From the NCBI GenBank assembly GCA_036405135.1, contig DASWYF010000044.1:1-64000 (forward strand): a stretch of DNA of 64,000 nucleotides, in the 5' to 3' direction. This DNA comes from Verrucomicrobiia bacterium (GTDB lineage Bacteria > Verrucomicrobiota > Verrucomicrobiia > Limisphaerales > JAEYXS01). Position numbers and translations under genes: made by a program. Under the pieces are notes generated by a model that worked only from the letters and a program-made list of their open reading frames with translations, was not told the origin of the DNA and ran no database searches. Positions 13,133 through 30,807 of the stretch are shown here, in pieces; the first letter of the stretch is position 1, and every line of letters begins with the position of its first letter.

Positions 13133-13146
13133 ACGCATTTAGCAGA

Positions 13147-14106
13147 TTAACGGCTTTTGTTCTCAAGAAATTTCTGCGCGGCCCCGATCACGGCCGCAGC
13201 TGAGATGGCATCCATACATTTCAGGCCGTAAGGGCAGGGTGTCCGCAACCAGCACGGGGCACATTCCACCGGTGTATAGAACGGGATGTTATTCGGATAA
13301 GGAAAATTCTCTGGTGAGGTGTATCCGCCAAAGACGATTATCGCCGGTGTTTTAAATCCTGCAGCCATGTGCATGCCGCCCGATTCTGCGCCTAAGTAGA
13401 GCTTCGCCTTGCTGATCAGGAAGGCCAAGTCAGTGAGAGTGGTTCGGCCAGCCAAAGAGAGGAAATTGGGACCAGACAGATTCAATATCGGTTTGGTTCC
13501 CGCTTCGATCACCAGATGGTCTTTGCTGAGAGCTTGTGCCACAGCCTGCCACCGTTCGAGTGGCCAGGTTTTATTCGGCGTCCAATTGCTTGTCTCCGTC
13601 TGAATGACGATATAAGGACGTTTTTGTGCCGCCAGCTCTGCTGTAAGCCAGGGAGAGGGTGTGACTTCTGGGGGGGCGGGACGAAAATCATCCGCATCCA
13701 AGCCTACACGTTCGCAGATGAGACGAAAGACATTGCGATTGCTCGGTACTTGATAGCGATAGCTTAGCTCCAGAGAGTCGCGTTTGTTTTCATCTTTGGC
13801 CGGGACTACCGAAGAGAGCAAAGGATGTCCTTGCCAGAAATCCATGTACCGAGTGACGAACGTGATTCGACAGGTTGGGTTTGCGATCTTGATGGCACGA
13901 ATGACACCACTCGCCAGCAGTTCATCCCCGATTCCGCCACCGGGTGAACGAATCTTCAGCGTATTGCGCTGATAGGGTTTGCCCAACGGCCAACGAAGAT
14001 GCCGGTATGCGGCAGGATGAACCCGCCGGATGAAAAGCGCACAACGCTGGTCAACTGCCTGAACAGCTCCGCGCAAATCTTTTAGAATGGCTTGGAAACG
14101 GCTCAC
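13147..14106 (-). CDS. Glycosyltransferase family 9 (heptosyltransferase-like)
   Basis: 319 residues from a GTG start. The GT-B fold has IRSPGGGIGDELLASGVIRAI early (the GGIGD loop) and FLISKAKLYLGAESGGMHMAAGFKTPAIIVFGG late, the GxDSG..H-like donor site of LPS heptosyltransferases; here AESGGMHMA. A CAPCWLRTPCPYGLKCM cysteine cluster near residues 280-300 matches the CxxC region of many GT9 enzymes. It probably adds a heptose or similar sugar. It is 3 bases after the preceding GT2 in operon order. Confidence 0.92.
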   Translation of the reverse strand: MSRFQAILKDLRGAVQAVDQRCALFIRRVHPAAYRHLRWPLGKPYQRNTLKIRSPGGGIGDELLASGVIRAIKIANPTCRITFVTRYMDFWQGHPLLSSVVPAKDENKRDSLELSYRYQVPSNRNVFRLICERVGLDADDFRPAPPEVTPSPWLTAELAAQKRPYIVIQTETSNWTPNKTWPLERWQAVAQALSKDHLVIEAGTKPILNLSGPNFLSLAGRTTLTDLAFLISKAKLYLGAESGGMHMAAGFKTPAIIVFGGYTSPENFPYPNNIPFYTPVECAPCWLRTPCPYGLKCMDAISAAAVIGAAQKFLENKSR

Positions 14107-14109
14107 AGC

Positions 14110-15108
14110 TCAATGCGGGCGAACCTTTTTGGCTTCTGCCGGTTTGCTTCCCGGAGTCACGGCTTTCACCAGTGATTTGAACATGGCCACTAGTGGGCGA
14201 GAAGAGGGCTGGTAACGCCATGACTTGAGGAACAGAGGCACAGCTGATAAGGCGCTTTCTTGAGCAGTGTAATAAGCATAATCAAAAAAATGTTCGGCCA
14301 CCATTTTTCGATATCGCGCATGTTCAGGCTCTGGCAGCCGGTCATTGATATGTTTGTAGATGCATTCCAAACCACACGCTTCACGGCGGGCAGCAGCCAC
14401 AACGGTTGCATGGACTGAAATGTTGTCCCCTTGAAGCGGCTTCGTCCAGGTGGGCCGTGAGCTAAAGGCGCACGTCGCATTATGGTTCAGCGTGATCTCG
14501 CTTAAGAGAAGCAGGTCCTCCAAAGTCCAACGCGCCACTTCCAGATTCCAGCGGGCCATCTTGTCTTTGCGCATCACCATGGCCGTGGAAGGGGCAGGGC
14601 GATGGATGACGATCAATTCTCGCGTCCTCTCGGCTGACAGATGACAAAATCCATCCGCATCTGGTGAGGTGGAAACCGGCGGCATGTAGGAAGTATCCTT
14701 GAACCGGTCGGCGGCCAGTAATTGGCCTTGCTCATCCACCTCGCGCCAATTCGCAAAATAGATGGGTACTTGGTACCGTTGAATGGCGGTCATCGCGCGC
14801 GCCAGATGATTTTCGTCCCAGTAATCATCGGAATCGAGTGTGGCCACGTAATCACCACGCGCACGGTCGAGACCGTGATTGCGGGCAGCAGACTGGCGTT
14901 GATTCTCCTGCCAGTAGTATTCGATATCTGTGCGTTTCTCGAGCAACTCGCGAGTCTTATCCTTGGAGCCGTCATCAATGACGATGATCTGCTTGTTCGG
15001 ATAAGTCTGGCGCAGCGCGGAATCGATTGCGCGCATGACCGTGCGTTCCCGATTGTAAGTCGGGATGATCACCGAAACGAGCGGCAGATTGGAAAGGGAG
15101 ACAGACAT
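14110..15108 (-). CDS. Glycosyltransferase family 2
   Basis: 332 residues. LVSVIIPTYNRERTVMRAIDSALRQT and IIVIDDGSKDKTREL form the nucleotide-binding half, followed by ARNHGLDRARGDYVATLDSDDYW, whose DSDD is the metal-binding DxD. The acceptor half is DLLLLSEITLNHNATCAFSSRPTW. The Lys-rich tail is ordinary. It acts in the cytosol on lipid-linked intermediates of the operon's polymer; specificity cannot be read. It begins 4 bases after the GT4 stop. Confidence 0.94.
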   Translation of the reverse strand: MSVSLSNLPLVSVIIPTYNRERTVMRAIDSALRQTYPNKQIIVIDDGSKDKTRELLEKRTDIEYYWQENQRQSAARNHGLDRARGDYVATLDSDDYWDENHLARAMTAIQRYQVPIYFANWREVDEQGQLLAADRFKDTSYMPPVSTSPDADGFCHLSAERTRELIVIHRPAPSTAMVMRKDKMARWNLEVARWTLEDLLLLSEITLNHNATCAFSSRPTWTKPLQGDNISVHATVVAAARREACGLECIYKHINDRLPEPEHARYRKMVAEHFFDYAYYTAQESALSAVPLFLKSWRYQPSSRPLVAMFKSLVKAVTPGSKPAEAKKVRPH

Positions 15109-15112
15109 GTGA

Positions 15113-16375
15113 CTAGCGTGTGCTGCCTTGCTTTTGCATGAGCTGTTTGAAAAGCGTCACATACCGCTCTCCTTGCAGGGCGAGCGGATATTCTTTTTCC
15201 GTTTTGCTCCGGCAAGCGGCCCGGAGATCTGTACCAGAACTCAAAGCGGTCAACGCGCGTTGCAGACATTCGGTGAAACCTTCCACTGAAACATTAGGAT
15301 TCAACCATCCGGTAACACCATCGGTGACCATGTCAGGCATGCCGCCGATGTGGAAGCCAACGACAGGTGTGCCGCAAGCCATGGCTTCCAGCACAGTATT
15401 AGGCAGATTGTCCTCGGTGGCGGGATGCAGCATCAGGTCGGCTGCTGAATACAGAATGGATTGCAGCACTTCACTGCTGATGAAGCCCATGTGCTGAATC
15501 GTCACGCCCGGAAGGTCGAGCTTCGGCGGTTCATGGCCCATGGTCAGCAGCGTGATTTTTTTATCCGACATCTGCTTCAAGGCACCGAGCGCGAAGCGTG
15601 CGCCTTTGCGCTCTTCGCCCAAGTTGGTGGCTGGCAGCAGGAGAACGGGTCCTTGAGCTTTAATGCCGAGGGATTCACGCGCCGACGCACGATCTACCGG
15701 ACGAAAGGTGTTCAGGTTCAGCCCGTAGGGAATGTGGATGACTTGATGATCACGCCACGCGCCGCGCAATGCCTCCTTTTGCATCCAGACGGAAGGCGTG
15801 ATGCAAGTGAGGTGCGGGCGGTCTTTCAAGAACTGAAGCTTACGCTGAAATATGGGACCGATCTCTGCGGGAGGCACGTGCTTATGGACGCCAGGACATA
15901 ATTTCTCCGTGGCGCACGCAGCATCACAACCAGCGGTGAACTTGTTGCAGTAAAATGCGTAAGTGCAAGCACCGGTAAAGCTCCACATGTCGTGCAGAGT
16001 CCATGCTTGCGGCAGGTGGGCAGGGATGGCTTCAAGGATGCCCATGTCCCAGCCAGTCGTGAACGTAGTGTGGATGTTCACCACATCCGGTTGGGTCTTG
16101 GCGATCAGCTTCTTGAGCTTGCGGATACTGAGATTCTGCAGAAGCTGATTCTGCGGGCGTTCCGGCAAAAGTTTGATCAGTGACGTGATCGCTTCCCCCG
16201 AAGCGGACAGATGCGAAAGCAGAGGATGCGAGACCCAGGGCGTACGTTTGTTCTGCGCGTACGCATAAGTGCGATGCACCTCGGCTCCAACGGCCAGCAG
16301 GCCATGCGCCAGCCGCGTGGTGGAGATGGCTCCACCATGCGAAGATTCTGTGTCTGATAAGATGAGTATGCGCAT
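15113..16375 (-). CDS. Glycosyltransferase family 4
   Basis: 420 residues, GT-B fold. The N-terminus is MRILILSDTESSHGGAISTTRLA; the donor half has LLLPATNLGEERKGARFALGA and HPATEDNLPNTVLEAMACGTPVVGF (the E-x7-E motif). The middle contains a Cys-rich stretch CTYAFYCNKFTAGCDAACATEKLCPG (residues about 150-175), like the Cys-containing WcaC/BceB-type transferases that strongly resemble colanic-acid enzymes. Start ATG 16375 is chosen over a TTG seven codons earlier. Sugar specificity is unknown. Confidence 0.92.
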   Translation of the reverse strand: MRILILSDTESSHGGAISTTRLAHGLLAVGAEVHRTYAYAQNKRTPWVSHPLLSHLSASGEAITSLIKLLPERPQNQLLQNLSIRKLKKLIAKTQPDVVNIHTTFTTGWDMGILEAIPAHLPQAWTLHDMWSFTGACTYAFYCNKFTAGCDAACATEKLCPGVHKHVPPAEIGPIFQRKLQFLKDRPHLTCITPSVWMQKEALRGAWRDHQVIHIPYGLNLNTFRPVDRASARESLGIKAQGPVLLLPATNLGEERKGARFALGALKQMSDKKITLLTMGHEPPKLDLPGVTIQHMGFISSEVLQSILYSAADLMLHPATEDNLPNTVLEAMACGTPVVGFHIGGMPDMVTDGVTGWLNPNVSVEGFTECLQRALTALSSGTDLRAACRSKTEKEYPLALQGERYVTLFKQLMQKQGSTR

Positions 16376-16410
16376 GATTGGCTTTGGCGCTCGCAATCCA
16401 GTGATGAGGC

Positions 16411-17388
16411 TTAAATTTTCTCTGTGATGACCGGAGGGATCCAGCGGGCCACCCGTTTGTTGAACTTCCGTTTCTTATCCCAAGCGAGCCACTCACTGAA
16501 CTTGGGACCGATCAGGTTCTGCCGTTCCAGTTCGGCGATGACGAAAGGATGAAAATTGCGCATGCAGGGCAACAGCACGGCGGGAGGACATTGTCGGATC
16601 AGTTCATCGATCTCTTTTCTGATGTCCACCCCCATATGATTACACAAGGCGATGACGTGCTTGGTGGTGCCAGTCACGTAAGGCTCCCGCATCGCTTCAC
16701 TGAAGCGCTTGCCATCCTGTTGCTGATGATGACGGATGCAGACCAGCGGTTCCGGGCTGAAAGTGATGCCGCCATAACGCGCGATTTCAGCCGCCACCAA
16801 ACGGTCACAATCGTAAGGATTGTAGAACTCCGTCAGCAGGGTGAAACAACGGTTCAAAGTCTCCCTTTTCCACAGCCCGGTCGAGAGGTGGATAGGGGTG
16901 CAAGGCAGAGAACCCAGTGCCAGTTGCTTCGGACTCAGATTCCACGGAGCGGTCACAGCCGGAAACCCGGAACCAAACCAGAGAGCGTAATTCTTGGCAG
17001 ACGAATATTCGCAAATGGTTTCGGAAGTGTAGAAATTCCAATCGCAGAAAAACGCTTCGGTGCCATAAGTCTTCAGGCTGTCGTAAGCCCGCTGCAAATA
17101 GCCAGGAAACCACCAGTCATCATCATGAAGCGTGGCGACATAGTCCGCGCTCGCCTGACCGTAAAGGTTCATGCTTCGGGCTGGATGAGGCTGGGCTGGG
17201 TCCAGATACTCATACTTGATCCGGGCATCACCAAAACTTTCGCAGACGGCCTGTGAATCACGGTTCTGCCCGTTCTCCGAGACGATGATCTCCTTGATGA
17301 GATGACCGCCCGTCTGATTCAGGACGGAGGCGATGGCCACCTTCAAGAGTTTCGGCCGGTTGGCCGTTGGCATGATGACGCTTACCAT
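16411..17388 (-). CDS. Glycosyltransferase family 2
   Basis: 325 residues. MVSVIMPTANRPKLLKVAIASVLNQTGG and EIIVSENGQNRDS start the GT-A fold; YVATLHDDDWWFPGYL carries the acidic metal site. The C-terminal third includes CIRHHQQQDGKRF. The last hundred residues are basic and lack membrane segments. It lies between the TPP enzyme and the GT4, in the same operon, so it should transfer a residue of the same polymer. Confidence 0.93.
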   Translation of the reverse strand: MVSVIMPTANRPKLLKVAIASVLNQTGGHLIKEIIVSENGQNRDSQAVCESFGDARIKYEYLDPAQPHPARSMNLYGQASADYVATLHDDDWWFPGYLQRAYDSLKTYGTEAFFCDWNFYTSETICEYSSAKNYALWFGSGFPAVTAPWNLSPKQLALGSLPCTPIHLSTGLWKRETLNRCFTLLTEFYNPYDCDRLVAAEIARYGGITFSPEPLVCIRHHQQQDGKRFSEAMREPYVTGTTKHVIALCNHMGVDIRKEIDELIRQCPPAVLLPCMRNFHPFVIAELERQNLIGPKFSEWLAWDKKRKFNKRVARWIPPVITEKI

Positions 17389-17418
17389 GATGCAGCGAGA
17401 ATATCTGAGGTAACCCGT

Positions 17419-19257
17419 TTAAGGTTGCAGCCCCAGTGATTTCGGATGGAGACCGGTGATCATCTCTTCGCGCAACACTTCACGAGGAAGCAAAGGAGAA
17501 AGATCTTCCAAAGGCGGTGAAACCAATGTCCCATCCTTTTGCACGGCAAGCGAAAGCTTGGGATGAAAATATTGTTCCGGATGCATGAAGACCTCGACGA
17601 TGCACGGGCCTTGATGCGCTTGAACCTCGGGCAATACCTTGTCGAAATCTTCCCACGTACGGATCTGCCATGCAGGAAAGCCGAACACAGCCGCCAGCTT
17701 GCTGAAATCAGGGCAGCTCACACCGGATTTGCGGTCCGTGCCGGAATAACGGCCTTTGAGGATCGCCTTCTGCGTGTGCTTGATCATCAGGTAACCGTCG
17801 TTGTTGAAGATGAACAGTTTGATGGGCAACTGATGATGCGCCATGGTCTGCAATTCCTGCAGGTTCATCATTATGCCGCCATCGCAGTTGAGGCACATGA
17901 CCTCACCGCGATTAAGTGCGAATGAAGCACCGATGGCACCGGGCAGGCCGAAGCCCATTTCGCCCAGACCTTGCGAAGTGAGCAACCGTTGCGGCGGCGT
18001 GATGGAAAGCGCCTGATGACCGCTGAGCAAGGCGGTGCCCATGTCCGTAACGATCACCTGGTCCGGTTTGAAGTGCGGACGCAGCTTGGCCATGAACGGA
18101 TAGGAATTGATGAAGCCTTCCTTGTCTTCGTGTTCTGGCCCGATCCAAGGGAACTTCCGGCAGGTGTTCTGGCATCTTTGCACCCATTGTGTCTGCTCGG
18201 TTGTAGGAGCAGGTGGGTTGCTGGCGAGAACGGTTCGGATGAAATCGCCCGCATCAGCGCACACGTTGTGATTAAAGCGGCTCGGATACTTCTTGAGTTC
18301 CGTAGGATCGATATCAACGACCGTGATGGTCGAAGCGTCGCGGGCAAATTCAGAGATCTCGTAACCTACCTGCAAAATCGCCATGCGTGTGCCGATCGCG
18401 AGCACGTAATCGCTGTTCTGCAGAATAAGGTTGGCCGCACGCTGGCCATAAGCACCAGCACGCCCGACGATCAATGGATGTTCCGAGGGCAGCAGGTCAA
18501 TGGCTGACCACGTGACCAACGCGGGAATGCCTAGCTGATCCACCATCTTGCGCACGTCTTCCACAGCATCTGCCATACGCACACCGACACCGAGCCAGAG
18601 CAGGGGACGTTTGGCGCTACGCAAAGCCGTGAGAGCCTTAGTCACTTCCTGTTGCAAGGCTGCTCCGGACAGTGTTGCCGGGGCTGACTTTTCTTCTGCT
18701 TCCGGTGTGAAGTGAGGGAGAGTATCCTCTTCCACCATGGCTCCCTGCACATTCATCGGAAAATCCACCCAACAAGGCCCAGGACGGCCAGTGGTGGCGT
18801 AGTGCCAGGCTTTCTCCAGTTCAAAAAGAACTTGTTGCGGGTCCATGACACGGCTCGCGTATTTGGTCATTTTGCTGACCGCGAACGGGCTGTCATAACC
18901 TTGGATGCCATACATGCGCAGATCATGATCCGGCGTGATATAACGGGCGTTTTCCTGACCGGAAAGGATCAGGCAGGGGATCGAGTCCGCCCAGGCAGAA
19001 AGCACGCCGGTGATGGCATTGCTGGAACCGGCACCTGCGGTCACAAGCGCGAAGGTGGGTTTGCCCGTGATTTTCCAATAAGTTTGCACCGCCATCGTGC
19101 AAGCCTGCTCATGATGGTTGCAGATCAGCTCGATGTTCGACTTGTTAAAGATGGAATCGAAAATGTGGGCATTGGCAGAGCCGATGATGCCGAAGGCATG
19201 AGTGATGCCTTTTTCATCAAAAAAACGGGCGATCAAATCGCTGACTTTAATTTTCAT
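17419..19257 (-). CDS. Thiamine diphosphate-dependent acetolactate-synthase-like enzyme, possible sugar-branch former
   Basis: 612 residues with the three-domain plan of TPP enzymes. Catalytic Glu is in ICNHHEQACTMA (E50), and the cofactor motif is NCDGGIMMNLQEL...FIFNNDGYLMI (residues about 435-470); canonical GDG is CDG here. The middle domain is TGRPGPCWVDFP. It resembles acetolactate synthase catalytic subunits, but no regulatory subunit or ilv gene is near. Lying between glycosyltransferase genes and CDP-3,6-dideoxyhexose genes, it may be like YerE, the TPP enzyme that adds a two-carbon acyl unit to CDP-4-keto-3,6-dideoxyglucose in yersiniose synthesis. That assignment is inference from context. 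Confidence 0.88.
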   Translation of the reverse strand: MKIKVSDLIARFFDEKGITHAFGIIGSANAHIFDSIFNKSNIELICNHHEQACTMAVQTYWKITGKPTFALVTAGAGSSNAITGVLSAWADSIPCLILSGQENARYITPDHDLRMYGIQGYDSPFAVSKMTKYASRVMDPQQVLFELEKAWHYATTGRPGPCWVDFPMNVQGAMVEEDTLPHFTPEAEEKSAPATLSGAALQQEVTKALTALRSAKRPLLWLGVGVRMADAVEDVRKMVDQLGIPALVTWSAIDLLPSEHPLIVGRAGAYGQRAANLILQNSDYVLAIGTRMAILQVGYEISEFARDASTITVVDIDPTELKKYPSRFNHNVCADAGDFIRTVLASNPPAPTTEQTQWVQRCQNTCRKFPWIGPEHEDKEGFINSYPFMAKLRPHFKPDQVIVTDMGTALLSGHQALSITPPQRLLTSQGLGEMGFGLPGAIGASFALNRGEVMCLNCDGGIMMNLQELQTMAHHQLPIKLFIFNNDGYLMIKHTQKAILKGRYSGTDRKSGVSCPDFSKLAAVFGFPAWQIRTWEDFDKVLPEVQAHQGPCIVEVFMHPEQYFHPKLSLAVQKDGTLVSPPLEDLSPLLPREVLREEMITGLHPKSLGLQP

Positions 19258-20309
19258 ATCGATTGGATGTGGCGATTCCAGGTGATCGTGCGCTGAATGG
19301 CGTCAGCCAAGGGCACCGTCACAGTCACGGAAAGTTCTTTCTTGGCGCGTTCGACTGAGGGAACCAGCCGCGTACGGTCATGGCCCGCCTGTCCCAAACG
19401 GGTGCGGATCTCGGGTGGAGGTGAGAAATGGCGGGTGATCAAGTGGGCGAGTGAACCGAGGTCGATAGGTTCAGGGCTGCCAACATTATACACCTGGCGC
19501 AGACGTCCTAGGGCCAGCGCGGATAAGACCCAGAAAGCAAAATCGCTGGCGTACATGATACTGCGAATGGTAGCGCCATCGCCCATGATGCGAATGGGGC
19601 CGCCATTGAAGCTGTCCCGCATGAAATCCGTGACCGCCCAGGGCAATTGCAATGATTGATAAGGGCCGACAAACGCGAACGGACGCAAGGTGACGATAGG
19701 CAACTTGCTTTCACTCAAAGCGCATTGTGCGGCCACTTCAGCAAAACGTTTCGATTCGGCGTAAGCGACGTTCACATCGTCGCAACGCAAGGCACCGCTG
19801 TAGGTTTCATCGATGCAAGGCATGTCCCAAGGCTGGGAACCGTAGACCAAGCCGGAACTGAGGATGACGATCTTCTCCAAGTCCTCCTGGAGATTGGCAG
19901 CGCGCAGCAAACGCATGAGGCCAAGACCATTGGTTTCTGCGACGGCATTTGGCTGGGACGCGAGCAGACGACGGTCTGTCAGGGCGGCGGCGTGGATGAT
20001 ATAACGGACATCGCGCGGCAGTTCGGTGAAGTGACGGATATCGCCCTCAGTCAGCTTGAGCCACGATTGTTGTCCCAGCTGCGGCCAGCGGCTGGCGAGT
20101 GATTTGGCATTCCGGCTGAAGGCCGTGACCTTGATGCCGAAACTGTGCTTCTCATTCAGCACGTTAATCAGTTCCAGCAACCATGTGCCCAGGAAACCGG
20201 TGCCGCCCGTGATGAAGATGTGCTGGTTGCGCAGAGCTTGCAGATTCTGCGTGCGGCCTTCGATCACCGCTTCCGCGTCAGCCCGGACTAATGCGATTGC
20301 TGGGTTCAT
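19254..20309 (-). CDS. NAD-dependent epimerase/dehydratase (SDR), paralogue of the 22231 gene
   Basis: 351 residues. After a 28-residue leader comes HIFITGGTGFLGTWLLEL, the Rossmann motif; catalytic residues are in YAESKRFAE, with LSSGLVYG for the Ser. The end shares IRIMGDGATIRSIMYASD and YNVGSPEPIDLGSLA with its paralogue in the same operon. In CDP-dideoxyhexose clusters such SDRs reduce a 4-keto group or a branch carbonyl (compare RfbJ, YerF). Its start codon... its stop overlaps the start of the TPP gene by ATGA, implying translational coupling. The exact substrate is not readable. Confidence 0.9.
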   Translation of the reverse strand: MNPAIALVRADAEAVIEGRTQNLQALRNQHIFITGGTGFLGTWLLELINVLNEKHSFGIKVTAFSRNAKSLASRWPQLGQQSWLKLTEGDIRHFTELPRDVRYIIHAAALTDRRLLASQPNAVAETNGLGLMRLLRAANLQEDLEKIVILSSGLVYGSQPWDMPCIDETYSGALRCDDVNVAYAESKRFAEVAAQCALSESKLPIVTLRPFAFVGPYQSLQLPWAVTDFMRDSFNGGPIRIMGDGATIRSIMYASDFAFWVLSALALGRLRQVYNVGSPEPIDLGSLAHLITRHFSPPPEIRTRLGQAGHDRTRLVPSVERAKKELSVTVTVPLADAIQRTITWNRHIQSI

Positions 20310-20312
20310 AGT

Positions 20313-21338
20313 TTACTTGGGCGCAATTTTCTTTTGGGCGAGTTCAGAGGCGACTTCCAGAATCAGATCTTCCTGGCCGCCGACCACTTTTCGCCGCCCT
20401 AATTCAAAGAAGACGTCACGTGGGTCGACACCTAATTGCGTGGCGGCGCGCTGAACAGGTTTCGCAAAGCCGGAGAACACGCCCGCCAAACCGCTGACGA
20501 TGGTGATGGCGTTAGAATCGGGCAAAGAGCCAGCGAAGAGCTTTGCGGCGATCTCGGCGGCGTCGAGGGCCTTGTAGAGGTCCAGACGTACGGGATAGTC
20601 CTGCTGCTTAAGCACCGCGGCGAGAAGCTCCAGCGGAGCATTACCTGCACCCGCGCCGAAGCCTTTGGCGGTGCCATCGATGATGCGTGCGCCTGCTTCT
20701 AGGGCCGCAAGTGAGTTGGCGATGGACAGGCCCAGATTGTCGTGCGCGTGGAAACCCACGGGCACTTCCAGTTTCTCGACGAGCAAACCAACTTTCTCGG
20801 TCACCGCAGTGGGGAAGTATGCTCCGGCGGAATCCATGAGCACGATGCCTTGAGCCCCATAGCTCTGCATTTTCTTGGCTTCTTCAAGCAGCACATCGGC
20901 TGTGACCATGTGGCTCATCATGAGCACGCCCCATGTCTCGCGACCGACGGAGCGGACGTAGCTGATGTGACGCTGGGTGATGTCCGCTTCCGTGCAATGA
21001 CAACCGATGCGGAACAAATCCACGCCGCAGTCCAAGGCATTGACGATCTCGCGCTTGATGGTGGCGAAACCGGGAATCACATGGACGCTGAGCTTGGTAT
21101 TGTTGAGGCACGCTTTGGCTGCACGAAGCATGTCGCCTTCGGGGACGAGGCTTTCGCCTACTTGCAATGAAGAAGCTCCGAGGCCGTTGCCGTGGCCGAC
21201 TTCGAGAAAGGAAAAACCGGCGGCTTCTGCGGCTGTCGCATAGGCGCGCACTTGCTCCAGCGTGATCTTGTGGCTGTAAGCATGGGAGCCATCACGCAGG
21301 GTGGCATCGCAGACTGTGATGTCGGGTTTGGCGGTCAT
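20313..21338 (-). CDS. 4-hydroxy-2-oxovalerate aldolase family enzyme (DmpG/HMGL-like)
   Basis: 341 residues, TIM-barrel. VCDATLRDGSHAYSHKITL matches the aldolase start with the metal-binding Asp and catalytic His; HCTEADITQRHISYVR, GVLMMSHM and VGFHAHDNLGLSIANS (metal-binding HxH) are characteristic, and GFGAGAGNAPLE is the conserved loop. The family reversibly splits 4-hydroxy-2-oxopentanoate into pyruvate and acetaldehyde and usually pairs with an acylating dehydrogenase, as here 3 bases upstream. No aromatic degradation gene is nearby, so a biosynthetic role in the operon is likely. Confidence 0.93.
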   Translation of the reverse strand: MTAKPDITVCDATLRDGSHAYSHKITLEQVRAYATAAEAAGFSFLEVGHGNGLGASSLQVGESLVPEGDMLRAAKACLNNTKLSVHVIPGFATIKREIVNALDCGVDLFRIGCHCTEADITQRHISYVRSVGRETWGVLMMSHMVTADVLLEEAKKMQSYGAQGIVLMDSAGAYFPTAVTEKVGLLVEKLEVPVGFHAHDNLGLSIANSLAALEAGARIIDGTAKGFGAGAGNAPLELLAAVLKQQDYPVRLDLYKALDAAEIAAKLFAGSLPDSNAITIVSGLAGVFSGFAKPVQRAATQLGVDPRDVFFELGRRKVVGGQEDLILEVASELAQKKIAPK

Positions 21339-21341
21339 GCG

Positions 21342-22211
21342 TCAGGAAAGTTTTCTTTGTGAGTACGCTTCGGCAAAAGCGATGGCAGCACAGTTGATGA
21401 TATCCAGATTGCCTGCGTATTTCGGAAGATAATCGCCCAAACCATCCACCCTGACCATCGTTATCAAACGGTTTCCTTCGATGATCGGGTCGAGGATCAG
21501 TTGGTAACCGGGGACGTATTGACGGATCAATGCCACCATTTCCGAAACCTTCTGGCGCGTAGCGGCCAAGTCAGGCTTGGATATTTTCGCCATCACCGTG
21601 GTCTGCATATGCACGCACGGGCTGGCGGGATTAAGATTTAAGATGGCCTTGGTGTGATTGCAGGAGGAGAACATCTGTATGCCCGATTCGGTGGTCATCA
21701 GATATTCGTCCAGATTGATACGGGTGGCTGGACCGGCACTCCGTGAGGCGATGCTGGAGACGGTCTCGATATATTCCACGCTCTGGTTCGCACTGGCGAT
21801 GGCGCAGGCGAGAGGGATCGAAGCCTGACCGCCACAGGTCACCATGTTCACATTCGGCTCGTTCAGACACTCGTTGAGATTCACGGCCGGAACGCACATG
21901 CGACCTACTTTGGCGGGAGTCAGATCGACGGCTACGATGCCTGCTTCCTGAAAGAGCGGTGCGTTTTTGTAATGATGTTCTGCGCTGGTGGCATCGAATA
22001 CCAAGGCGATCTCTTTTTTGAGATCGAGGATGCTGTCGATGCCTTTGGCAGAGACAGGAACGTTCAGCATGCTGGCCTTGGTCATGCCGGGAGAGGAGAG
22101 GTTGCGACCGGCGAAGACGCGACATTCCAGCAGGGGAGAGCGCAGCACCTTCAACAGCAGGTCCGTGCCGATATTGCCGGTTCCTAAGATCGCGATGGGC
22201 AGTTTGGCCAT
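21342..22211 (-). CDS. Acetaldehyde dehydrogenase (acylating), DmpF/MhpF-like
   Basis: 289 residues. N-terminal NAD fold IAILGTGNIGTDLLLKVL; catalytic Cys in VNMVTCGGQASIPLACA (about C127); ETVSSIASRSAGPATR is the conserved mid-region; and RVDGLGDYLPKYAGNLDIINCAA ends the protein. The family interconverts acetaldehyde and acetyl-CoA with NAD and CoA and forms a channelling complex with the aldolase encoded directly downstream. Working in reverse it would supply acetaldehyde for aldol addition. It is slightly shorter than the roughly 310-residue relatives. Confidence 0.94.
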   Translation of the reverse strand: MAKLPIAILGTGNIGTDLLLKVLRSPLLECRVFAGRNLSSPGMTKASMLNVPVSAKGIDSILDLKKEIALVFDATSAEHHYKNAPLFQEAGIVAVDLTPAKVGRMCVPAVNLNECLNEPNVNMVTCGGQASIPLACAIASANQSVEYIETVSSIASRSAGPATRINLDEYLMTTESGIQMFSSCNHTKAILNLNPASPCVHMQTTVMAKISKPDLAATRQKVSEMVALIRQYVPGYQLILDPIIEGNRLITMVRVDGLGDYLPKYAGNLDIINCAAIAFAEAYSQRKLS

Positions 22212-22230
22212 ACAGCTTGCTTGTTCAGCA

Positions 22231-23268
22231 TCAATTCCGTTTTATCCATGCCACAGTCCGTTGCAGCGCATCATCCAGACTTGTTTCCGCATTCAAATGT
22301 AGTTGTGACCGGGCTTTGCCAGTGGCGGGCACGTAACGCTCCGGCAAGCTGCCAGCCCGAGGCTGGCCGGCGATGACGACCGGTGAACCGGGAGAGAACT
22401 GGTTTTGTATCTTTCGCGCCAGTTCACCGATGGAGAGATCGTTTTCCGCACCTACATTATACGCTTGGAAAGCCTCGCCACGAAACAGGATGGTCCAAAG
22501 CCAAATGGCAAGATCCGCTGCGTAGAGGTAAGAGCGCATCGGCGTGCCATCACCGAGGATATGGATTTTTTCACCCGCCAACGCGTTTCTCAAGAAGTTG
22601 CCGATGGCGTAGTGAGAATCCAAGGGCAGGTAAGGACCCACGAAAGCGAAACAGCGGGCTACTTTGACTTCGAAGCCATATTGCCGCCCATGAAGCACGC
22701 TCAAGTGTTCGGACAGGCGTTTGCCTTCTCCATAGGCGGAGAGGGCGTTCATGGTGTCAGGAGCGCCGGTATAGCTTTCGGGAACGTGGGTGAGGTCTTT
22801 GGGTTGTGGTCCATAGACTGCCCCGGAACTGGTCAGGAGAAATTTTTTAGCACCTGCATGGCGGGCAAATTCCAAAGCCCGTTGCGTGCCATCCACAATC
22901 GTTTCCAACATCAGCAAAGGCTGTTCAGCATTCAGCTTGGCACTGGCTTCGGTGGCCGCGTGGATGACGTGGGAGAAATTTCCGGCGGGAAATTCAAAGT
23001 CCCGAATATCTCCCGTGACAAAAGAGATCGCCGGATGGTTCAGCAGATGCGGAGCTTTGGCAGCCAGTGCCTGCGGATTGCGACTGAGCACTACGGCATG
23101 GGCGTCGAGCTTCAGGGTGTCATTCGCCCACGCAAAACTTTCCAATAACCAGCAGCCAAAGAAGCCGGTTCCTCCGGTGATGAAAATACGCTGGCCACGC
23201 AGCTCCTCCCACAACCCTTGGGTGTGGTGCATTACATGATCCAGATCTTTGGCCAGCGGGTTGCTCAT
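22231..23268 (-). CDS. NAD-dependent epimerase/dehydratase (SDR), paralogue of the 19254 gene
   Basis: 345 residues. RIFITGGTGFFGCWLLESFAWAN is the cofactor loop, LLTSSGAVYGPQPK holds the catalytic Ser and SAYGEGKRLSEH the YxxxK. FVGPYLPLDSHYAIGNFLRNAL and ILGDGTPMRSYLYAADLA match the nearby paralogue, so an ancient duplication in the operon is likely. It follows RfbH with an ATGA overlap, which ties it to the CDP-dideoxyhexose steps. It may reduce C4 of the sugar or a carbonyl on a branch. Confidence 0.9.
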   Translation of the reverse strand: MSNPLAKDLDHVMHHTQGLWEELRGQRIFITGGTGFFGCWLLESFAWANDTLKLDAHAVVLSRNPQALAAKAPHLLNHPAISFVTGDIRDFEFPAGNFSHVIHAATEASAKLNAEQPLLMLETIVDGTQRALEFARHAGAKKFLLTSSGAVYGPQPKDLTHVPESYTGAPDTMNALSAYGEGKRLSEHLSVLHGRQYGFEVKVARCFAFVGPYLPLDSHYAIGNFLRNALAGEKIHILGDGTPMRSYLYAADLAIWLWTILFRGEAFQAYNVGAENDLSIGELARKIQNQFSPGSPVVIAGQPRAGSLPERYVPATGKARSQLHLNAETSLDDALQRTVAWIKRN

Positions 23269-24755
23269 TTACGGCTATGGCAGTAATCGCGAATGACTTT
23301 GACCATGTGATCCAGCATGGCCTTGGACAGGCCCGGGTAAGTGCCCAGGAAGATGGCTTGGTTCATGATCTGATCAGCACCGGGGAGTTCTCCGATGGTG
23401 CGGAAAGCACTGGGCCGGTCTTTCTTCAACTGCACGAAAACGGGCTGGCGAAGCAGATTGCCGCCAAAGAGCATGCGGTTGCCGATCTTTTGTGAATCGA
23501 GATGACGGCCTAATTCCGTGTGCGTGAAAGGCGCGCCGGGCTTGACGCGGATCATGAAGCCGAACCACGAGCAATCTGTGCGGCAGCCGGTGTTATCCCA
23601 AGTGAAACCTTGCGACGTCCAGCCGGTGGCGTGAGTAGGCAGCGAGAAATCGAAAAACTCTGACAAGTCCGCCAATCCAGCGCGGAGGTGTTCCCAATTC
23701 GTTTTGCGCGCCTCGACAAAGGCGGCGAGTTTCTTCAATTGCTGACGCCCGATGGCAGCCTGCGGGTCTAGCGGCTTCAAATTGTAGCCGAGGTGGCTGT
23801 AGATATATTTGTGGTCGTAGCCTTTGGGCAGTTCGCCGAGCTGCCAGTCGAAACGCTTGTTGCAGGTATTGTCTTTGCCGCTGGCGCACCAGCAGTCGCG
23901 ACCCCAATCACGAAAGCTCTCGGCATAAGTTTTCAGAGGAGGACGGGAGACGATGTTCACGGCGCCACCTTCACCCATGGTGAGGTGGTGCGGGGGATAA
24001 AAAGATTGTGTCGAGATGTCACCCCAAGTGCCGGTGTAGCGGGTGATGTGCGTGCCGTTTTCCGGGATGCCGGGAGAATTGCTGGTGATGCCGAGAGCTT
24101 TGGCGCGTTCGATCGGCATGGAGTAGGTGCAGCCGAGGGCATCGCAATTATCCTCGATCAACCACAGATCATGTTTGCGGCAGAATTCGAGGACGGCACC
24201 GAGATCAAAAGGATTGCCCAAGGTGTGGGCCATCATGACCGCTTTCGTTTTGCCGGGGCTGTAGGCGCGTTCCAACTGATCCACCTGCGCGTTGCCCGTA
24301 GCCGGATCGTTATCCATGAACACGGGGATGGCACCGTATTGGACGATAGGAGCGACGGTGGTCGGGAATCCTGCGGCTACGGTAATGACTTCATCACCGG
24401 GCAGGATACGCTTATGCGGCGGTAGCTTGTGGCTGGTTAGAGCAGAAAATGCTACCAGATTCGCTGAAGAACCGGAGTTGACGAGCAGCGAGTGTTTGAC
24501 GCCCAGATAAGAGGCGAGTTCTTTTTCAAAGGCTTCGCCTTCCGGTCCCAAGGTCAGCCAGAAATCCAACGTGCTGCCGACAGCGGCTTCCACTTCGTCT
24601 TCCGTGAAGACGCGGCCTGCGTAGGGGATGGTGGTTTTTCCGGGAGTGAACTCGTTGGCGTTTTCAGCGCCGGGACGGTTCGCGCGATGGACCATGGCGG
24701 AGTATTCGCGGGTGAGGCGTAATATCTCAGCTTTTAACTCAGCAGGGGTTGGCAT
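23265..24755 (-). CDS. rfbH: CDP-4-keto-6-deoxyglucose 3-dehydrase (E1, RfbH)
   Basis: 496 residues; the enterobacterial enzyme is about 437. It is an aminotransferase-fold enzyme using PMP and a [2Fe-2S] cluster to remove the C3 hydroxyl of CDP-4-keto-6-deoxyglucose. Key signs: SFYPPHHLTMGEGGAV has His where aminotransferases have Lys, as in RfbH; EDNCDALGC and RDWGRDCWCASGKDNTC give the cluster cysteines (CxC-x7-C). Extra length includes an N-terminal leader and an insert of about 28 residues (around 218-245) between CDALGC and TGTWGD. A reductase (E3/AscD) partner is not seen in the window. Confidence 0.95.
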   Translation of the reverse strand: MPTPAELKAEILRLTREYSAMVHRANRPGAENANEFTPGKTTIPYAGRVFTEDEVEAAVGSTLDFWLTLGPEGEAFEKELASYLGVKHSLLVNSGSSANLVAFSALTSHKLPPHKRILPGDEVITVAAGFPTTVAPIVQYGAIPVFMDNDPATGNAQVDQLERAYSPGKTKAVMMAHTLGNPFDLGAVLEFCRKHDLWLIEDNCDALGCTYSMPIERAKALGITSNSPGIPENGTHITRYTGTWGDISTQSFYPPHHLTMGEGGAVNIVSRPPLKTYAESFRDWGRDCWCASGKDNTCNKRFDWQLGELPKGYDHKYIYSHLGYNLKPLDPQAAIGRQQLKKLAAFVEARKTNWEHLRAGLADLSEFFDFSLPTHATGWTSQGFTWDNTGCRTDCSWFGFMIRVKPGAPFTHTELGRHLDSQKIGNRMLFGGNLLRQPVFVQLKKDRPSAFRTIGELPGADQIMNQAIFLGTYPGLSKAMLDHMVKVIRDYCHSRK

Positions 24756-24762
24756 GATGCGT

Positions 24763-25872
24763 TTAAGATTTGGCCCACTCGATCTGGCGCTCAGCGGCTT
24801 GCTGAGCGTAGTTTTGGATCTGGGCGAGAGTCAGTTCCCGGGCACTATTCGAGTTGTTAGATTCGGTGACGGTGCGATACCACTGGGCGGTACGGGCGAC
24901 GGTTTCAGAGAAGTTCCACACCGGTTGCCAGCCCAACAGGCCATGCGCCTTGTCCGTGGTCAGATGCAGCAACTTGGCTTCGTGCGCGGCTTTGGGATCG
25001 CTCTTGTCCGTCCAGGTGCCGGGCCAATGCTTCAACAATTCTTCCACCAGTGATTTAACATTCTGGTTGGAGCTGTTGGTGGGGCCGAAATTAAAAGCGG
25101 AAGAATAGTATGAACCGTCGAAGCGGCCCAACTGCGGATTCGCCAGCAATGCGCCGAGCCACAGGTAACCGCTCAAAGGTTCCAGCACATGTTGCCAGGG
25201 ACGCGTGGCCACTTTGTTGCGGACAGGGATGGCTTCACCCTTTTGCAGAGAACGGACGCAGTCAGGGATGATACGGTCCTTGGCCCAATCTCCACCACCG
25301 ATGACATTCCCCGCGCGCGCGCTGGCGATCTTCACCGGATGATTGACGAAGAAAGAACGACGCCAAGAACTGATGGCCAGTTCAGCAGCAGCTTTGCTGG
25401 AGCTGTAGGGATCGAATCCACCCAAGGCATCTTCTTCGCGATAGCCATGGACCCATTCACGATTCTCGTAGCATTTATCCGTGGTGATGAAGACGGCGGC
25501 ACAGGACTTGCCCAAGTGACGAAGCGATTCGAGCACATTGACAGTGCCCATCACATTCACTTCGTAGGTATCCACCGGGGCGTCATAGGAATAACGGACC
25601 AGTGGCTGTGCGGCTAAGTGGAACACGAAATCCGGCTGCGTTTCGAATATGGATTTCTTAACGGCAGCAGCATCGCGGATGTCGTTGATCTCGTTCTCCA
25701 ACCGGCCAGCGAGTTGCAGCTGATTGAAGAGGGCAGGGCCCGCGTCAGGCGCGAGGGAGTAGCCATGCACAATAGCACCCTGTGACAACAGCCATTCAGC
25801 CATCCAGGAACCTTTGAATCCTGTATGGCCGGAGAGCCAGACTTTTTTACCGTTATAGATGGAGCCGAACAT
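24763..25872 (-). CDS. rfbG: CDP-glucose 4,6-dehydratase
   Basis: 369 residues, extended SDR. KVWLSGHTGFKGSWMAEWLL is the hallmark Rossmann start of RfbG. FHLAAQPLVRYSYDAPVDTYEVNVMGTVN, ITTDKCYENREW and YSSSKAAAELA (YxxxK) complete the active site. It converts CDP-glucose to CDP-4-keto-6-deoxyglucose. ATG 25872 overlaps the stop of rfbF as ATGA, so translation is probably coupled; a TTG five codons earlier is unlikely. Confidence 0.96.
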   Translation of the reverse strand: MFGSIYNGKKVWLSGHTGFKGSWMAEWLLSQGAIVHGYSLAPDAGPALFNQLQLAGRLENEINDIRDAAAVKKSIFETQPDFVFHLAAQPLVRYSYDAPVDTYEVNVMGTVNVLESLRHLGKSCAAVFITTDKCYENREWVHGYREEDALGGFDPYSSSKAAAELAISSWRRSFFVNHPVKIASARAGNVIGGGDWAKDRIIPDCVRSLQKGEAIPVRNKVATRPWQHVLEPLSGYLWLGALLANPQLGRFDGSYYSSAFNFGPTNSSNQNVKSLVEELLKHWPGTWTDKSDPKAAHEAKLLHLTTDKAHGLLGWQPVWNFSETVARTAQWYRTVTESNNSNSARELTLAQIQNYAQQAAERQIEWAKS

Positions 25873-26654
25873 CACCAGGTTTTCCAAGGAGCTTTGCCGC
25901 TGTTCCAGAGAGAGTTCAGGTATTGGTTTTCTTGATAAGTATCCATCGGCTGCCAGAAGCCATCATGCTTGTAGCTGTTGAGCTGACGGTCTTTTACCAA
26001 ATCTGCGATCGGCTGACGCTCCAGCATGACATTGGGATCGTCAGGCAGATACTTGAACACGTCGTGCTGGCAAACCATGAAGCCGCCATTGATATACGCG
26101 TCTTCCATCTGCGGTTTTTCCGCGAAGCTATGGATGCTGCCATCATCGGCGATCTGCATCGCACCGAAGCGTCCGGCAGGATGAACGGCGGTGATGGTCA
26201 GATGCTTGCCTGATTTCTGATGGCACTGGATCGAAGCATTGACATCGATGTTCGATACTCCGTCGCCGTACGTGAGGAGAAATGGTTCGCCGGGGGCGAG
26301 ATATTTTTGAATCTGGCGCACGCGGAAAGCAGTCATGGACTCTTGGCCGGTATCAGCCAAGGTCACACTCCAGTCTTCTTCACCGTGGCGGTCGTGATAT
26401 TGGATGGCCGGATTGCGTCCGAGCTGGAGGGTGACATCGCAGGTGTTCCAATGATAATTACGGAAATAGTCTTTGATCATGTCGCCTTTGTAGCCGAGGC
26501 AAAGGATGAACTCCTTGTGCCCTTGCACGGCGTAGGTCTTCATGATGTGCCAGAGGATCGGACGATTGCCGATGGGCACCATGGGCTTGGGGCGGTATTC
26601 CGTCTCTTCACGGAGACGGGTGCCTTTACCACCGCAGAGGATGACTACTTTCAT
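25872..26654 (-). CDS. rfbF: Glucose-1-phosphate cytidylyltransferase
   Basis: 260 residues, the family's usual length. The nucleotidyltransferase signature VVILCGGKGTRLREETEYRPKP opens the protein, followed by GNRPILWHIMKTY, FLLTYGDGVSNIDV and the RfbF-specific AVHPAGRFGAMQI and GGFMVCQHDVF. It makes CDP-glucose from CTP and glucose 1-phosphate, the first committed step for 3,6-dideoxyhexoses. It starts 6 bases after the Wzt stop. Confidence 0.97.
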   Translation of the reverse strand: MKVVILCGGKGTRLREETEYRPKPMVPIGNRPILWHIMKTYAVQGHKEFILCLGYKGDMIKDYFRNYHWNTCDVTLQLGRNPAIQYHDRHGEEDWSVTLADTGQESMTAFRVRQIQKYLAPGEPFLLTYGDGVSNIDVNASIQCHQKSGKHLTITAVHPAGRFGAMQIADDGSIHSFAEKPQMEDAYINGGFMVCQHDVFKYLPDDPNVMLERQPIADLVKDRQLNSYKHDGFWQPMDTYQENQYLNSLWNSGKAPWKTW

Positions 26655-26660
26655 ATTTTC

Positions 26661-27950
26661 TTAGTGGCTCAAAACTTCGGTGGACCAGGCCATCTTAGGA
26701 CGGATGGAACCGATCCAAGGGCCGGAATATTCTTTGCGCATCTCGCCGCTATCATGGGCGATGAAGCTCAGCACGTTCTCGGCCTTTGCCAGGATCTTGG
26801 AATTGTTATGCACGAGAAATGCGCTGATGCCGTAGCTGCATTCATTTAGGAAATTCGCCGGGATGACGCAGCGGGTGCGGTAAGTGCCGATGGGCAGATT
26901 CTTATTAGCCCAAACATCTTCAATGGTGTTCACCGAAGGCATGTTGCCGGTCGCGAGGATGCAAGAGCCGAGATTGTCCAGCAGGTGGATGCTGCAGGAA
27001 ACAGCTTCATTGCCAGTCTGACAGACGTAGTCAATCTCCACGACTGTCTCGCTGCCGGTCTTCACTTCGCTGGTGATCTTTTCATCGCTGAGCAAACGTA
27101 CGGCGGTGATTTTGGCGATGTGATTTCCTGGAGCTTTCTCCAAGTCTTTCCACTTCATTTCTCCTTCGCGATTACCGAGTCCGGAGATGTAATGCTCGAT
27201 CGCTTTGGAAACGGTGCCGTCCATGGAGACTTGGCCTGCGCTCATCACGATGCCGCGCGTGCAAAGTTTGCTCAAGCTGGCTAGTTGATGAGAGACGAAC
27301 AGGACCGTGCGGCCCTCGTTGTTAGCCACGTTCTGCATTTTTCCGAGGCACTTCTCCTGGAAACGCACATCACCTACTGCGAGCACTTCATCTACGATCA
27401 AGATTTCGGGATCAAGGTGAGCAGCCACTGCAAAGGCCAGACGCACATACATGCCGCTGGAGTAGCGTTTGACCGGAGTATCGAGGAACTTCTCGATCTC
27501 GGCGAATGCGACGATTTCATCGAACTTCTTTTTGATCTCAGCCTGGCTCATACCGAGAATGGCACCGTTCAGGAAAACATTCTCGCGTCCGGTAAGTTCG
27601 GGATGAAAACCGGTGCCGACTTCCAGCAAGCTGGCGATGCGACCGCGGAGGCGAATCTCGCCAGTGGTGGGTTCGGTGATCTGGCTGAGAATCTTCAGCA
27701 ACGTGGATTTGCCAGCGCCATTGCGACCGATGATGCCGACGACTTCGCCGGGATTGATATCGAAAGAAACATCACGCAATGCCCAAAATTCGGCAGGAGA
27801 AGTTGAGGGTTGCCCATTTTGGGCTCCTGACCCGCCCAAGAATTTCTTGGCCGTATACGCCAGTCGGTCGCGTAGAGTGTCATGACGAATGGTTTCGCCG
27901 AGTTCGTAACGCTTGCCGATATTACGAACGCTGATGATTGGATGGCTCAT
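26661..27950 (-). CDS. wzt: ABC transporter ATP-binding protein with C-terminal domain (Wzt-like)
   Basis: 429 residues. The ATPase half has Walker A GRNGAGKSTLLKIL (about residues 72-85), signature YSSGMYVRLAFAVAAH and Walker B ILIVDEVLAVGD. Residues about 250-429 form an extra beta-rich domain (VVEIDYVCQTGNEAVSCSIHLL) like the Wzt C-terminal carbohydrate-binding domain that recognises the capped end of a polymer before export. It should therefore export a finished, terminally modified polysaccharide together with the permease 3 bases upstream in the operon. Confidence 0.95.
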   Translation of the reverse strand: MSHPIISVRNIGKRYELGETIRHDTLRDRLAYTAKKFLGGSGAQNGQPSTSPAEFWALRDVSFDINPGEVVGIIGRNGAGKSTLLKILSQITEPTTGEIRLRGRIASLLEVGTGFHPELTGRENVFLNGAILGMSQAEIKKKFDEIVAFAEIEKFLDTPVKRYSSGMYVRLAFAVAAHLDPEILIVDEVLAVGDVRFQEKCLGKMQNVANNEGRTVLFVSHQLASLSKLCTRGIVMSAGQVSMDGTVSKAIEHYISGLGNREGEMKWKDLEKAPGNHIAKITAVRLLSDEKITSEVKTGSETVVEIDYVCQTGNEAVSCSIHLLDNLGSCILATGNMPSVNTIEDVWANKNLPIGTYRTRCVIPANFLNECSYGISAFLVHNNSKILAKAENVLSFIAHDSGEMRKEYSGPWIGSIRPKMAWSTEVLSH

Positions 27951-27953
27951 TCG

Positions 27954-28805
27954 TTAAATAACGTCAGCAAAGGTTTTCTCCGTGGTGCGGAAGTAATAAG
28001 CACCCGTGATCAGCAGTAGTCCCACAACTGCCACGCTGGCAGTCATACCAGGCCAATACGGCTCAAATTGTTCACCCAGAATGCACCAACGGAAGCCTTC
28101 CACAGCGCCCACCATGGGATTGAGTGTGTAAGCAAGCATAAGCCATTTCTGGGGAATAAGGCTGATGCTGAAAAACACGGGCGTCACATAAAGGCCCATG
28201 CGGGTAAGGAAGGGGACTACGTGTTTCACATCCCTATATTTGACATTCAAAGCGCTCAGCCACATGCCGACGGCCATGGCTGCCATGGTGGTGTAGAGGA
28301 AAAAGAAAGGCAAAAGCAGCAAGCGCGGAGTAAGTGCTGTTTGATGATACAACATCAGCAAGAACAAGAGAACGAGGGAGATAAGAAAATCGATCATGCC
28401 ACTCATGACCGCGCTTCCGGGAATGATAAGGCGGGGAAAATAGACCTTGGTGATCATGTTCTGCGAAGCGATCAAGGAATTGCTGCTTTCCGTCATGGCA
28501 TTGGAGAAATATTGCCAAGGAAGCAAGGCGGCGAAGGTGAGTAAAACGTAAGGCACGCCATTACTGGGTAAATTGGCAAGACGTCCAAAGACGACTGCGC
28601 CAATTGCCACAGTCAGAAGGGGTTGCAACACGGCCCAAGCCACACCCAAAAGAGTCTGCTTATAACGGATAAGCACATTGCGCCATGCAAGTTGCCAGAA
28701 TAATTCGCGATAGCGCCAGAGTTCCGCCATATCAATGGCGGCCAAACCGCTGCGGGGACGGATAACTCGCTCAATGGCGGAGGCGTTGGGGGAGGATGCG
28801 GGCAT
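27954..28805 (-). CDS. wzm: ABC transporter permease for polysaccharide export (Wzm-like)
   Basis: 283 residues with about six membrane helices. The amphipathic RYRELFWQLAWRNVLIRYKQTLLGVAWAVLQPLL and LLTFAALLPWQYFSNAMTESSNSLI are typical of ABC-2 polysaccharide permeases, as is YFPRLIIPGSAVMSG. It forms the inner-membrane channel with Wzt. It starts 2 bases past the regulator stop and is the second gene of the operon. Confidence 0.95.
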   Translation of the reverse strand: MPASSPNASAIERVIRPRSGLAAIDMAELWRYRELFWQLAWRNVLIRYKQTLLGVAWAVLQPLLTVAIGAVVFGRLANLPSNGVPYVLLTFAALLPWQYFSNAMTESSNSLIASQNMITKVYFPRLIIPGSAVMSGMIDFLISLVLLFLLMLYHQTALTPRLLLLPFFFLYTTMAAMAVGMWLSALNVKYRDVKHVVPFLTRMGLYVTPVFFSISLIPQKWLMLAYTLNPMVGAVEGFRWCILGEQFEPYWPGMTASVAVVGLLLITGAYYFRTTEKTFADVI

Positions 28806-29341: not shown

Positions 29342-29343
29342 TC

Positions 29344-29361
29344 GTTTAGAAAATTCTAAAC
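29344..29361. promoter_or_regulatory. Candidate operator palindrome at the operon head
   Basis: GTTTAGAA and TTCTAAAC are exact inverted arms separated by AA, starting 2 bases before the regulator's ATG (29341, minus strand). The size fits a site for a dimeric MarR/GbsR-type protein, so it may mediate autoregulation. Confidence 0.6.
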
Positions 29362-29363
29362 GT

Positions 29364-29393
29364 TGTGTATGGTTTGTGCTGGTTGAGTGTCAA
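29364..29393 (-). promoter_or_regulatory. Possible promoter of the minus-strand operon
   Basis: On the minus strand TTGACA (29388-29393) is followed after 18 bases by TACACA (29364-29369), a weak -10. The operator palindrome is immediately downstream. The -35 is perfect, the -10 is poor, so confidence is moderate. Confidence 0.45.
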
Positions 29394-29586: not shown

Positions 29587-30807
29587 ATGAAACTAAATTA
29601 TCGCTACGCGCTTAGTTTGTTTGCCGGACTTGTTCTTGCGACAAACGTTACTGCGCAATCTCAAAATGCATCTGACAAGGTCGATGGATGGCGTAAGGCT
29701 CGCGAGGAGTATTTGAGCCAGTTGCGCGCCAAGGAGCAGGTGGGTGGACGTCTGGACGGTCTCCAGAAGGAGCTTGATCGCCTGTCTGATCGCCGCGTGT
29801 TTTTGGAGCGCGAGTCTACTTATGTCCGTTCCAAGTCTGATACTGCTGCCAAGCAGTTGCAGCTTGCCAATTCCAACCAGGTTGCCACGGAGATTGAGAA
29901 GTGGCAGAAGGAAGCCTCAGCTTGGGCTGAGCGTGTGAAGGCTGTGGAAACTGAGACAGCGCAAATCGATGCGCAGATCGAAGCTAAGTTGGGCGAGTTG
30001 CGCAAGCTGGCCTCTGAGGGTGGTTCCAAGGTTTTGACCACGGGTGAGCCGATCCAGATCTTTGTGGTGGAAGACGAGTCGTTCAACAGTGTTTATCAAA
30101 TCCGTGAGGGTGGATACATTGTTCTTCCTCGTATCGGTCGCGTGCAGGTTGCTGGTAAGGACTTGCCGGACGCCGAGAAGACGATCAAGGAAGCTCTGGA
30201 AGCTTCGCAGTTGCGTCAGGCCACGGTGATGGTTGAGCGCACGGTTGAGACTTACTCGGCTGGTTCCGCGAACGTGGTGTATCTGGCTGGTGAATTCAAG
30301 CAGACTGGTCCTTTGTTGTTGCCTGCCGGTTATTCACCGACAATCACGACCATCTTCATCCGTTCGGGTGGTACAAAGGATTCCGGTGATTTGACCCGTG
30401 TGAAACTTCTCCGCCTTGCGGAAGGCAAGAGCTTGGTGGAAGAAGTCAATGTGCAAGCGATTTTGGATGGTGCTGGCTTGACGCCGGATGTGTCCGTGCA
30501 GCCGGGTGATATCGTGGTGGTGCCGGCCTTCGCCAACCGCGTGTATGTGACGGGTAACGTCAAGAGCGCTGGTATCGTGCAGTTGCCGATTGATGAGGAG
30601 TTGACGGCCTATGCGGCGATTCTCCGCAGTGGTGGTTTTGCCCGCTTCGCCAAGAAGAGTGGTGTGTATGTGCTTCGCAATGGTGGTAACGGTGAAAAAT
30701 TCCGCATCCCTGTGAGCATCAAGAGTGTGCAATCTGGCAAACAACCTGATGTGGTGCTGCAAAGCAATGACATCATCGTGGTGCCCGAGAGCTTCTTTAG
30801 CTTCTAA
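29587..30807 (+). CDS. Polysaccharide biosynthesis/export protein (Wza-like) with N-terminal coiled coil
   Basis: 406 residues. Signal peptide MKLNYRYALSLFAGLVLATNVTAQ, with no lipobox cysteine, unlike Wza. Residues about 30-145 are a charged coiled coil (EYLSQLRAKEQVGG..LDRLSDRRVFLERES). Residues about 152-228 are the export domain (IQIFVVEDESFNSVYQIREGGYI), then two SLBB-like domains, VVYLAGEFKQTGPLLL and NRVYVTGNVKSAGIVQL, each ending in a DIVVVP motif. It should form the outer-membrane/periplasmic export channel with the Wzc-like kinase downstream. A terminator-like hairpin follows. Confidence 0.9.
   Translation: MKLNYRYALSLFAGLVLATNVTAQSQNASDKVDGWRKAREEYLSQLRAKEQVGGRLDGLQKELDRLSDRRVFLERESTYVRSKSDTAAKQLQLANSNQVATEIEKWQKEASAWAERVKAVETETAQIDAQIEAKLGELRKLASEGGSKVLTTGEPIQIFVVEDESFNSVYQIREGGYIVLPRIGRVQVAGKDLPDAEKTIKEALEASQLRQATVMVERTVETYSAGSANVVYLAGEFKQTGPLLLPAGYSPTITTIFIRSGGTKDSGDLTRVKLLRLAEGKSLVEEVNVQAILDGAGLTPDVSVQPGDIVVVPAFANRVYVTGNVKSAGIVQLPIDEELTAYAAILRSGGFARFAKKSGVYVLRNGGNGEKFRIPVSIKSVQSGKQPDVVLQSNDIIVVPESFFSF

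Follow-up and report, generated by a model that had tools for sequence, protein, structure and literature searches.

Does the palindrome lying in front of a GbsR/MarR-type regulator gene act as the operator by which this regulator controls its own gene along with the exporter and glycan genes that follow? This is the question raised by the 64,000-nucleotide stretch of Verrucomicrobiia DNA analyzed here (the window). The preliminary description of the locus had placed a palindrome, GTTTAGAA-AA-TTCTAAAC, directly upstream of the regulator gene and just downstream of a TTGACA box. It was found at 29344-29361 as described, and its arms are one pair longer (29343-29362). Read on the minus strand, CGTTTAGAA-TT-TTCTAAACG is a perfect palindrome of 20 bases, with 9-base arms and a 2-base gap. 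A single base separates it from the ATG of the regulator gene, and the TTGACA box is located 25 nt away on the same strand (29393-29388), in agreement with that description. The features considered are collected in Table 1.

Table 1. Features of the regulator locus in the window, and of the associated elements in Verrucomicrobiota relatives (last two lines).
Feature	Position	Strand	Basis or further occurrences
Palindromic operator candidate, 20 bp	29343..29362	read on minus strand, CGTTTAGAA-TT-TTCTAAACG	sequence, uniqueness, comparison
TTGACA, likely -35 box	29388..29393	-	sequence; 25 nt to operator versus 23-24 nt in five Elusimicrobiota loci
CATACA, weak -10 candidate, 16-nt spacer	29366..29371	-	position only
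GbsR/MarR-type regulator, 177 aa	28808..29341	-	1ku9 (MJ223) by sequence and fold; CudC model
Codons of SKASISITIRQMERW, residues 62-76, predicted recognition helix	29114..29158	-	alignment; predicted helix 63-75; covariation with operator type
Sixteen co-directional genes behind the regulator	11359..28805	-	domain and family matches; first four in same order in G002
Wza-type polysaccharide export gene, divergent	29587..30807	+	PF02563 and SLBB domains; across 245-bp intergenic region
NusG paralogue	L038:10102-10605		homologues in L036, L037, L040, L045, L049, L066, L076, L092
Leader GCGAANTGACCGGCACGAAGTGT	e.g. L066:5931-5953		L037, L041, L049, L066, L069, L072, L074, L092 and others

The palindrome occurs once in the 5.8-Mb assembly, with no second copy even when up to 3 mismatches are allowed, which argues against a wider target set; this single copy in the genome suggests an autoregulator of local, not global, reach. 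Matches to its sequence by chance are expected about 0.01 times per window at 3 mismatches. For perfect 9-2-9 palindromes, whatever their sequence, the expectation is 0.2 per 64 kb, and the window has two, the other being at 9508. Within the 245-bp intergenic region, any palindrome with 9-bp arms and a gap of 0-6 is expected 0.007 times. The scan lists the palindrome as a terminator-like site on the plus strand, so it could also be an RNA hairpin (a terminator or a leader structure) or a chance palindrome. This is a very remote prospect: the stem is A/T-rich, with 3 G-C pairs by the count of the scan, and lacks a real T tract, shuffled sequences contain terminator-like sites equally often, and different phyla share the letters, always in the same position with respect to promoter and gene. 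The hairpin reading was rejected due to the A/T-rich stem, the shuffle frequency and the low chance expectation.

Concerning the promoter, a simple consensus scan found none at the window locus, and CATACA is a poor -10 hexamer, though it lies at the usual distance from TTGACA. With a -10 element at the customary distance, the transcript would begin at the palindrome or slightly before it. The 20-bp site extends from just past the -10 position to the start codon, so that a dimer of the regulator, which would bind there, would lie over the presumed start of transcription and the first bases of the transcript. In this way the repressor would obstruct RNA polymerase and keep the expression of its own gene low, along with that of the co-directional exporter and glycan genes, until some signal released it. 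Bacillus subtilis GbsR is described as a roadblock acting from downstream of the transcription start (PMC7396694).

The regulator is GbsR-like in sequence and fold. MJ223 of Methanocaldococcus jannaschii (1ku9), an archaeal protein, is the closest solved structure by both measures: the sequence match (1e-16) is the best among solved structures, and 1ku9 is also the top match of the predicted fold (pLDDT 88.5; E 2e-10), with a TM-score of only 0.48. As in MJ223, the model predicts a winged helix-turn-helix N-terminal domain and a helical dimerization domain. The match to the CudC family model (5e-24, 85 bits) is far below the curated cut-off of 218, so nothing points to choline as the signal, and this score and the exporter/glycan neighbors set the protein apart from the choline/glycine-betaine GbsR or CudC proper. 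B. subtilis GbsR and OpcR are GbsR-type repressors with A/T-rich inverted-repeat operators, which the candidate operator of the window resembles, but they control choline and compatible-solute genes, none of which is present in the window operon.

Further parallels are CydE from Alishewanella and CioR from Chromobacterium violaceum, in which a GbsR-type MarR gene also heads its own target operon (PMC6096048, PMC11837568), the target in the window being a presumed one, and a 20-bp palindromic site is also located upstream of the regulator gene. CydE is a GbsR-type repressor with a DNase I footprint at TATTTCAGAAATTTCTGAAAGTTCA (PMC6096048), and CioR represses its own operon directly (PMC11837568). 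Nevertheless, their targets are cytochrome bd genes of respiration, their operator is ATTTCAGAA and their helix is SRSNVSM[SG]LRELQ. The window locus has neither the SRSNV helix, nor an operator of the ATTTCAGAA type, nor cytochrome bd neighbors; it presents instead the helix SKASISITIRQM, the operator CGTTTAGAA and polysaccharide genes. CydE also served as a positive control. When the same scan was run on the proteobacterial homologues, ATTTCAGAAATTTCTGAAAT or a close variant appeared before most genes and matched the published CydE footprint, which indicates that the procedure finds a true operator of this protein type.

A second GbsR-type paralogue is encoded elsewhere in the window's genome (L050:8671-9264, G000:C24). 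It adjoins a protoglobin gene, which is reminiscent of the CydE/CioR group, and it has a conserved operator of its own, ATTTCTGT-n4-ACAGAAAT, found also at L021-L023, L025-L027, L029, L031 and L032.

The preliminary description had counted seventeen genes in the operon, and 17 consecutive minus-strand genes are indeed seen, from 29341 down to 11359. Assuming that the last gene begins at the internal ATG at 12294, the gaps between them go from -16 to +46 bp, and it is plausible that they form one operon. They encode a Wzm/Wzt-type ABC exporter pair, rfbF-rfbG-rfbH (assigned to a CDP-3,6-dideoxy sugar), sugar enzymes, glycosyltransferases and an FkbM methyltransferase. The same-genus genome G002 preserves the order regulator, Wzm, Wzt, rfbF, rfbG. 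In the same-genus comparison the regulator is 84-88% identical and the other four proteins 53-62%. The G002 contig begins inside the regulator gene (88% identical), without upstream DNA, and a further genome of the genus, G001, has only the GbsR-type paralogue. The assemblies of the window's close relatives are drafts. As a separate observation, the region 17419-25887 of the window (minus strand) holds, besides rfbF-rfbG-rfbH, DmpF/DmpG-like acetaldehyde dehydrogenase and aldolase genes and a TPP enzyme gene, a gene set that suggests a branched CDP-3,6-dideoxy sugar.

A search for the palindrome upstream of orthologues had been proposed for this locus, with a lack of conservation there counting against the reading, and the site came through it. 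In the window's order it gave a sister palindrome, CGTTCAATT..AATTGAACG, also of 20 bp, upstream of 8 of the 16 subfamily loci (a count that leaves out the incomplete contig of G002), and a site of the window's own type in Elusimicrobiota. The core of the sister site is GTTCA, as in CGTTCAATTCAAATTGAACG, versus GTTTA in the window. By the same criterion, the other 8 homologues of the order showed no clear site. Searching the sister-site pattern in the 97 genomes of the order gave 9 matches, one per genome, versus 0 for the reversed-pattern control, and 7 of the 9 are in front of a GbsR-type gene. Regarding the other two, the match in G083 falls within a coding frame with no regulator beside it and was dismissed as chance, and the one in G056 (C274) is followed by the leader element described below, with no regulator found on the contig. 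A looser class-wide pattern, GTTYAR..YTRAAC, was discarded because its matches were mostly chance, the controls being equal or higher. Apart from these, GTTCAGT-n4-ACTGAAC palindromes recur in five genomes of the same class (G138, G144, G114, G106 and G099), which belong to one other family of it, f65.

GTTTA-type sites appeared in a sweep of named genomes, in Elusimicrobiota and in one Chloroflexota MAG. A pattern made of TTGACA, a spacer and the palindrome, in which the regulator gene takes no part, matched 9 of 248 Elusimicrobiota genomes (reversed control, 1), and all 9 sites are directly before a GbsR homologue. Two of these loci, L147 and L148, have 9-base arms identical to those of the window. 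The distance from TTGACA to the operator is 23-24 nt in Elusimicrobiota, or 33 nt in one subgroup (25 in the window), and that from the operator to the ATG is 0-14 nt (1 in the window). Where the window has CATACA, relatives have TATACT or similar. Since the order -35 box, operator, ATG is common to different phyla, the annotated start codon is supported too. Two extra GTTTA-type palindromes, L144 and L146 (both in G347), were rejected as operators, having no GbsR gene behind them; they are flanked by a longer common inverted repeat, TGACTGTTTAGGACTTTTTAAACAGTCA, and look like repeats.

The position of the site could also be read in another way. It lies within a 245-bp region common to two divergent polysaccharide operons, and the GTTCA-type operators of the order can be as far as about 250 nt away from the regulator gene, so the regulator could bind the site with the divergent Wza/tyrosine-kinase operon as its main target, or its binding could activate. 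This seems unlikely to us, because 225 nt separate the site from the Wza ATG, yet it abuts that of the regulator, the Elusimicrobiota site is immediately 3' of a good promoter facing the regulator gene, a position suited to blocking, and the characterized relatives CydE and CioR repress their own operons.

The letters of the operator also vary with the protein. The residue concerned corresponds to Thr69 of the window regulator and is the eighth in the recognition-helix segment starting with SK. All 13 loci of the GTTCA type have Gly there, and all 11 of the GTTTA type, among them the window, have Asn, Thr or His. Helix residue class and operator class thus agree in 24/24 classed loci (Fisher 4e-7, ignoring kinship). 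Kinship among the genomes inflates this and the other counts given here. The rule is not absolute, given that the Gly helix of L081 goes with a mixed site. In the tree, the window regulator grouped weakly with Verrucomicrobiota and not with Elusimicrobiota; hence the match in operator type does not simply reflect one clade, at the low support of this tree.

The palindrome could instead belong to another DNA-binding protein controlling the operon, with the GbsR-like protein acting elsewhere, and the link between protein and site is a statistical association only. Even so, this is quite improbable: the operator letters track the helix of the adjacent protein across phyla, the pattern matches carry a GbsR-type gene in 9/9 and 7/9 genomes, and the footprinted positive control, CydE, is of the same protein type. 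Taken together, the presence of the site, its size, position and conservation and the helix covariation argue, by sequence comparison, that the palindrome is very probably the operator of the adjacent GbsR/MarR-type protein, which would repress its own gene from a site over the transcription start. The reading as a self-controlling repressor is thus supported by the sister sites, the Elusimicrobiota sites and the helix covariation; in it we infer binding, autorepression, the transcription start, the extent of the operon and the signal.

In the Verrucomicrobiota relatives the locus has further components, arranged as a NusG-paralogue gene, the operator, a hairpin leader, the GbsR gene and polysaccharide genes. 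At least two kinds of polysaccharide gene flank 12/20 Verrucomicrobiota loci, versus 1/51 in the proteobacterial-type set, and that single case (L092) is a Verrucomicrobiota locus counted in both sets. The NusG paralogue gene is directly upstream of the operator or regulator in nine Verrucomicrobiota genomes, and a homologue is present in 52 of the 97 genomes of the order. The leader, GCGAANTGACCGGCACGAAGTGT, is conserved between the operator and the GbsR gene and was found within two mismatches in 37/97 genomes of the order (control matches, 3). It can fold into two small hairpins in which pairs covary: the outer N positions are paired in 11/14, versus 4.5 in shuffled sequences, and the inner pairs are A-T in 33 and G-C in 8. 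No Rfam match for the leader was found in the eight loci searched, the search of the relatives' loci giving one tRNA and nothing else. The NusG paralogue accompanies the leader, occurring in 28 of the 37 genomes with it and in 24 of the 60 without it (p = 0.0008, ignoring kinship), and the leader is reminiscent of RfaH's ops element. Both that NusG gene and the leader are absent from the window's genome. These elements are a lead that carries no weight in the judgement on the palindrome.

These data could correspond to an undescribed control system of surface-polysaccharide operons in Verrucomicrobiota and Elusimicrobiota, formed by a distinct GbsR subfamily with helix-matched operators and, in many Verrucomicrobiota, by a neighboring NusG paralogue together with an ops-like hairpin leader, of which the window's genome would keep the repressor half only. 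This proposal is tentative, and we would put it slightly short of an even chance. No relevant paper linking GbsR to polysaccharide biosynthesis was found in the literature searched. In the 2018 phylogenomic study of GbsR, 73 of 179 homologues had no deducible role (PMC6207618); at least one more GbsR group may have polysaccharide control as its role. The regulator and its operator are a candidate pair for the control of surface-polysaccharide operons in phyla difficult to bring into culture, and the helix/operator combinations offer a natural series for learning how GbsR-type proteins choose their DNA. Furthermore, the relatives suggest an arrangement in which a repressor and antitermination are combined, which is directly testable; if true, the initiation and the elongation of one long operon would be controlled by neighboring genes.
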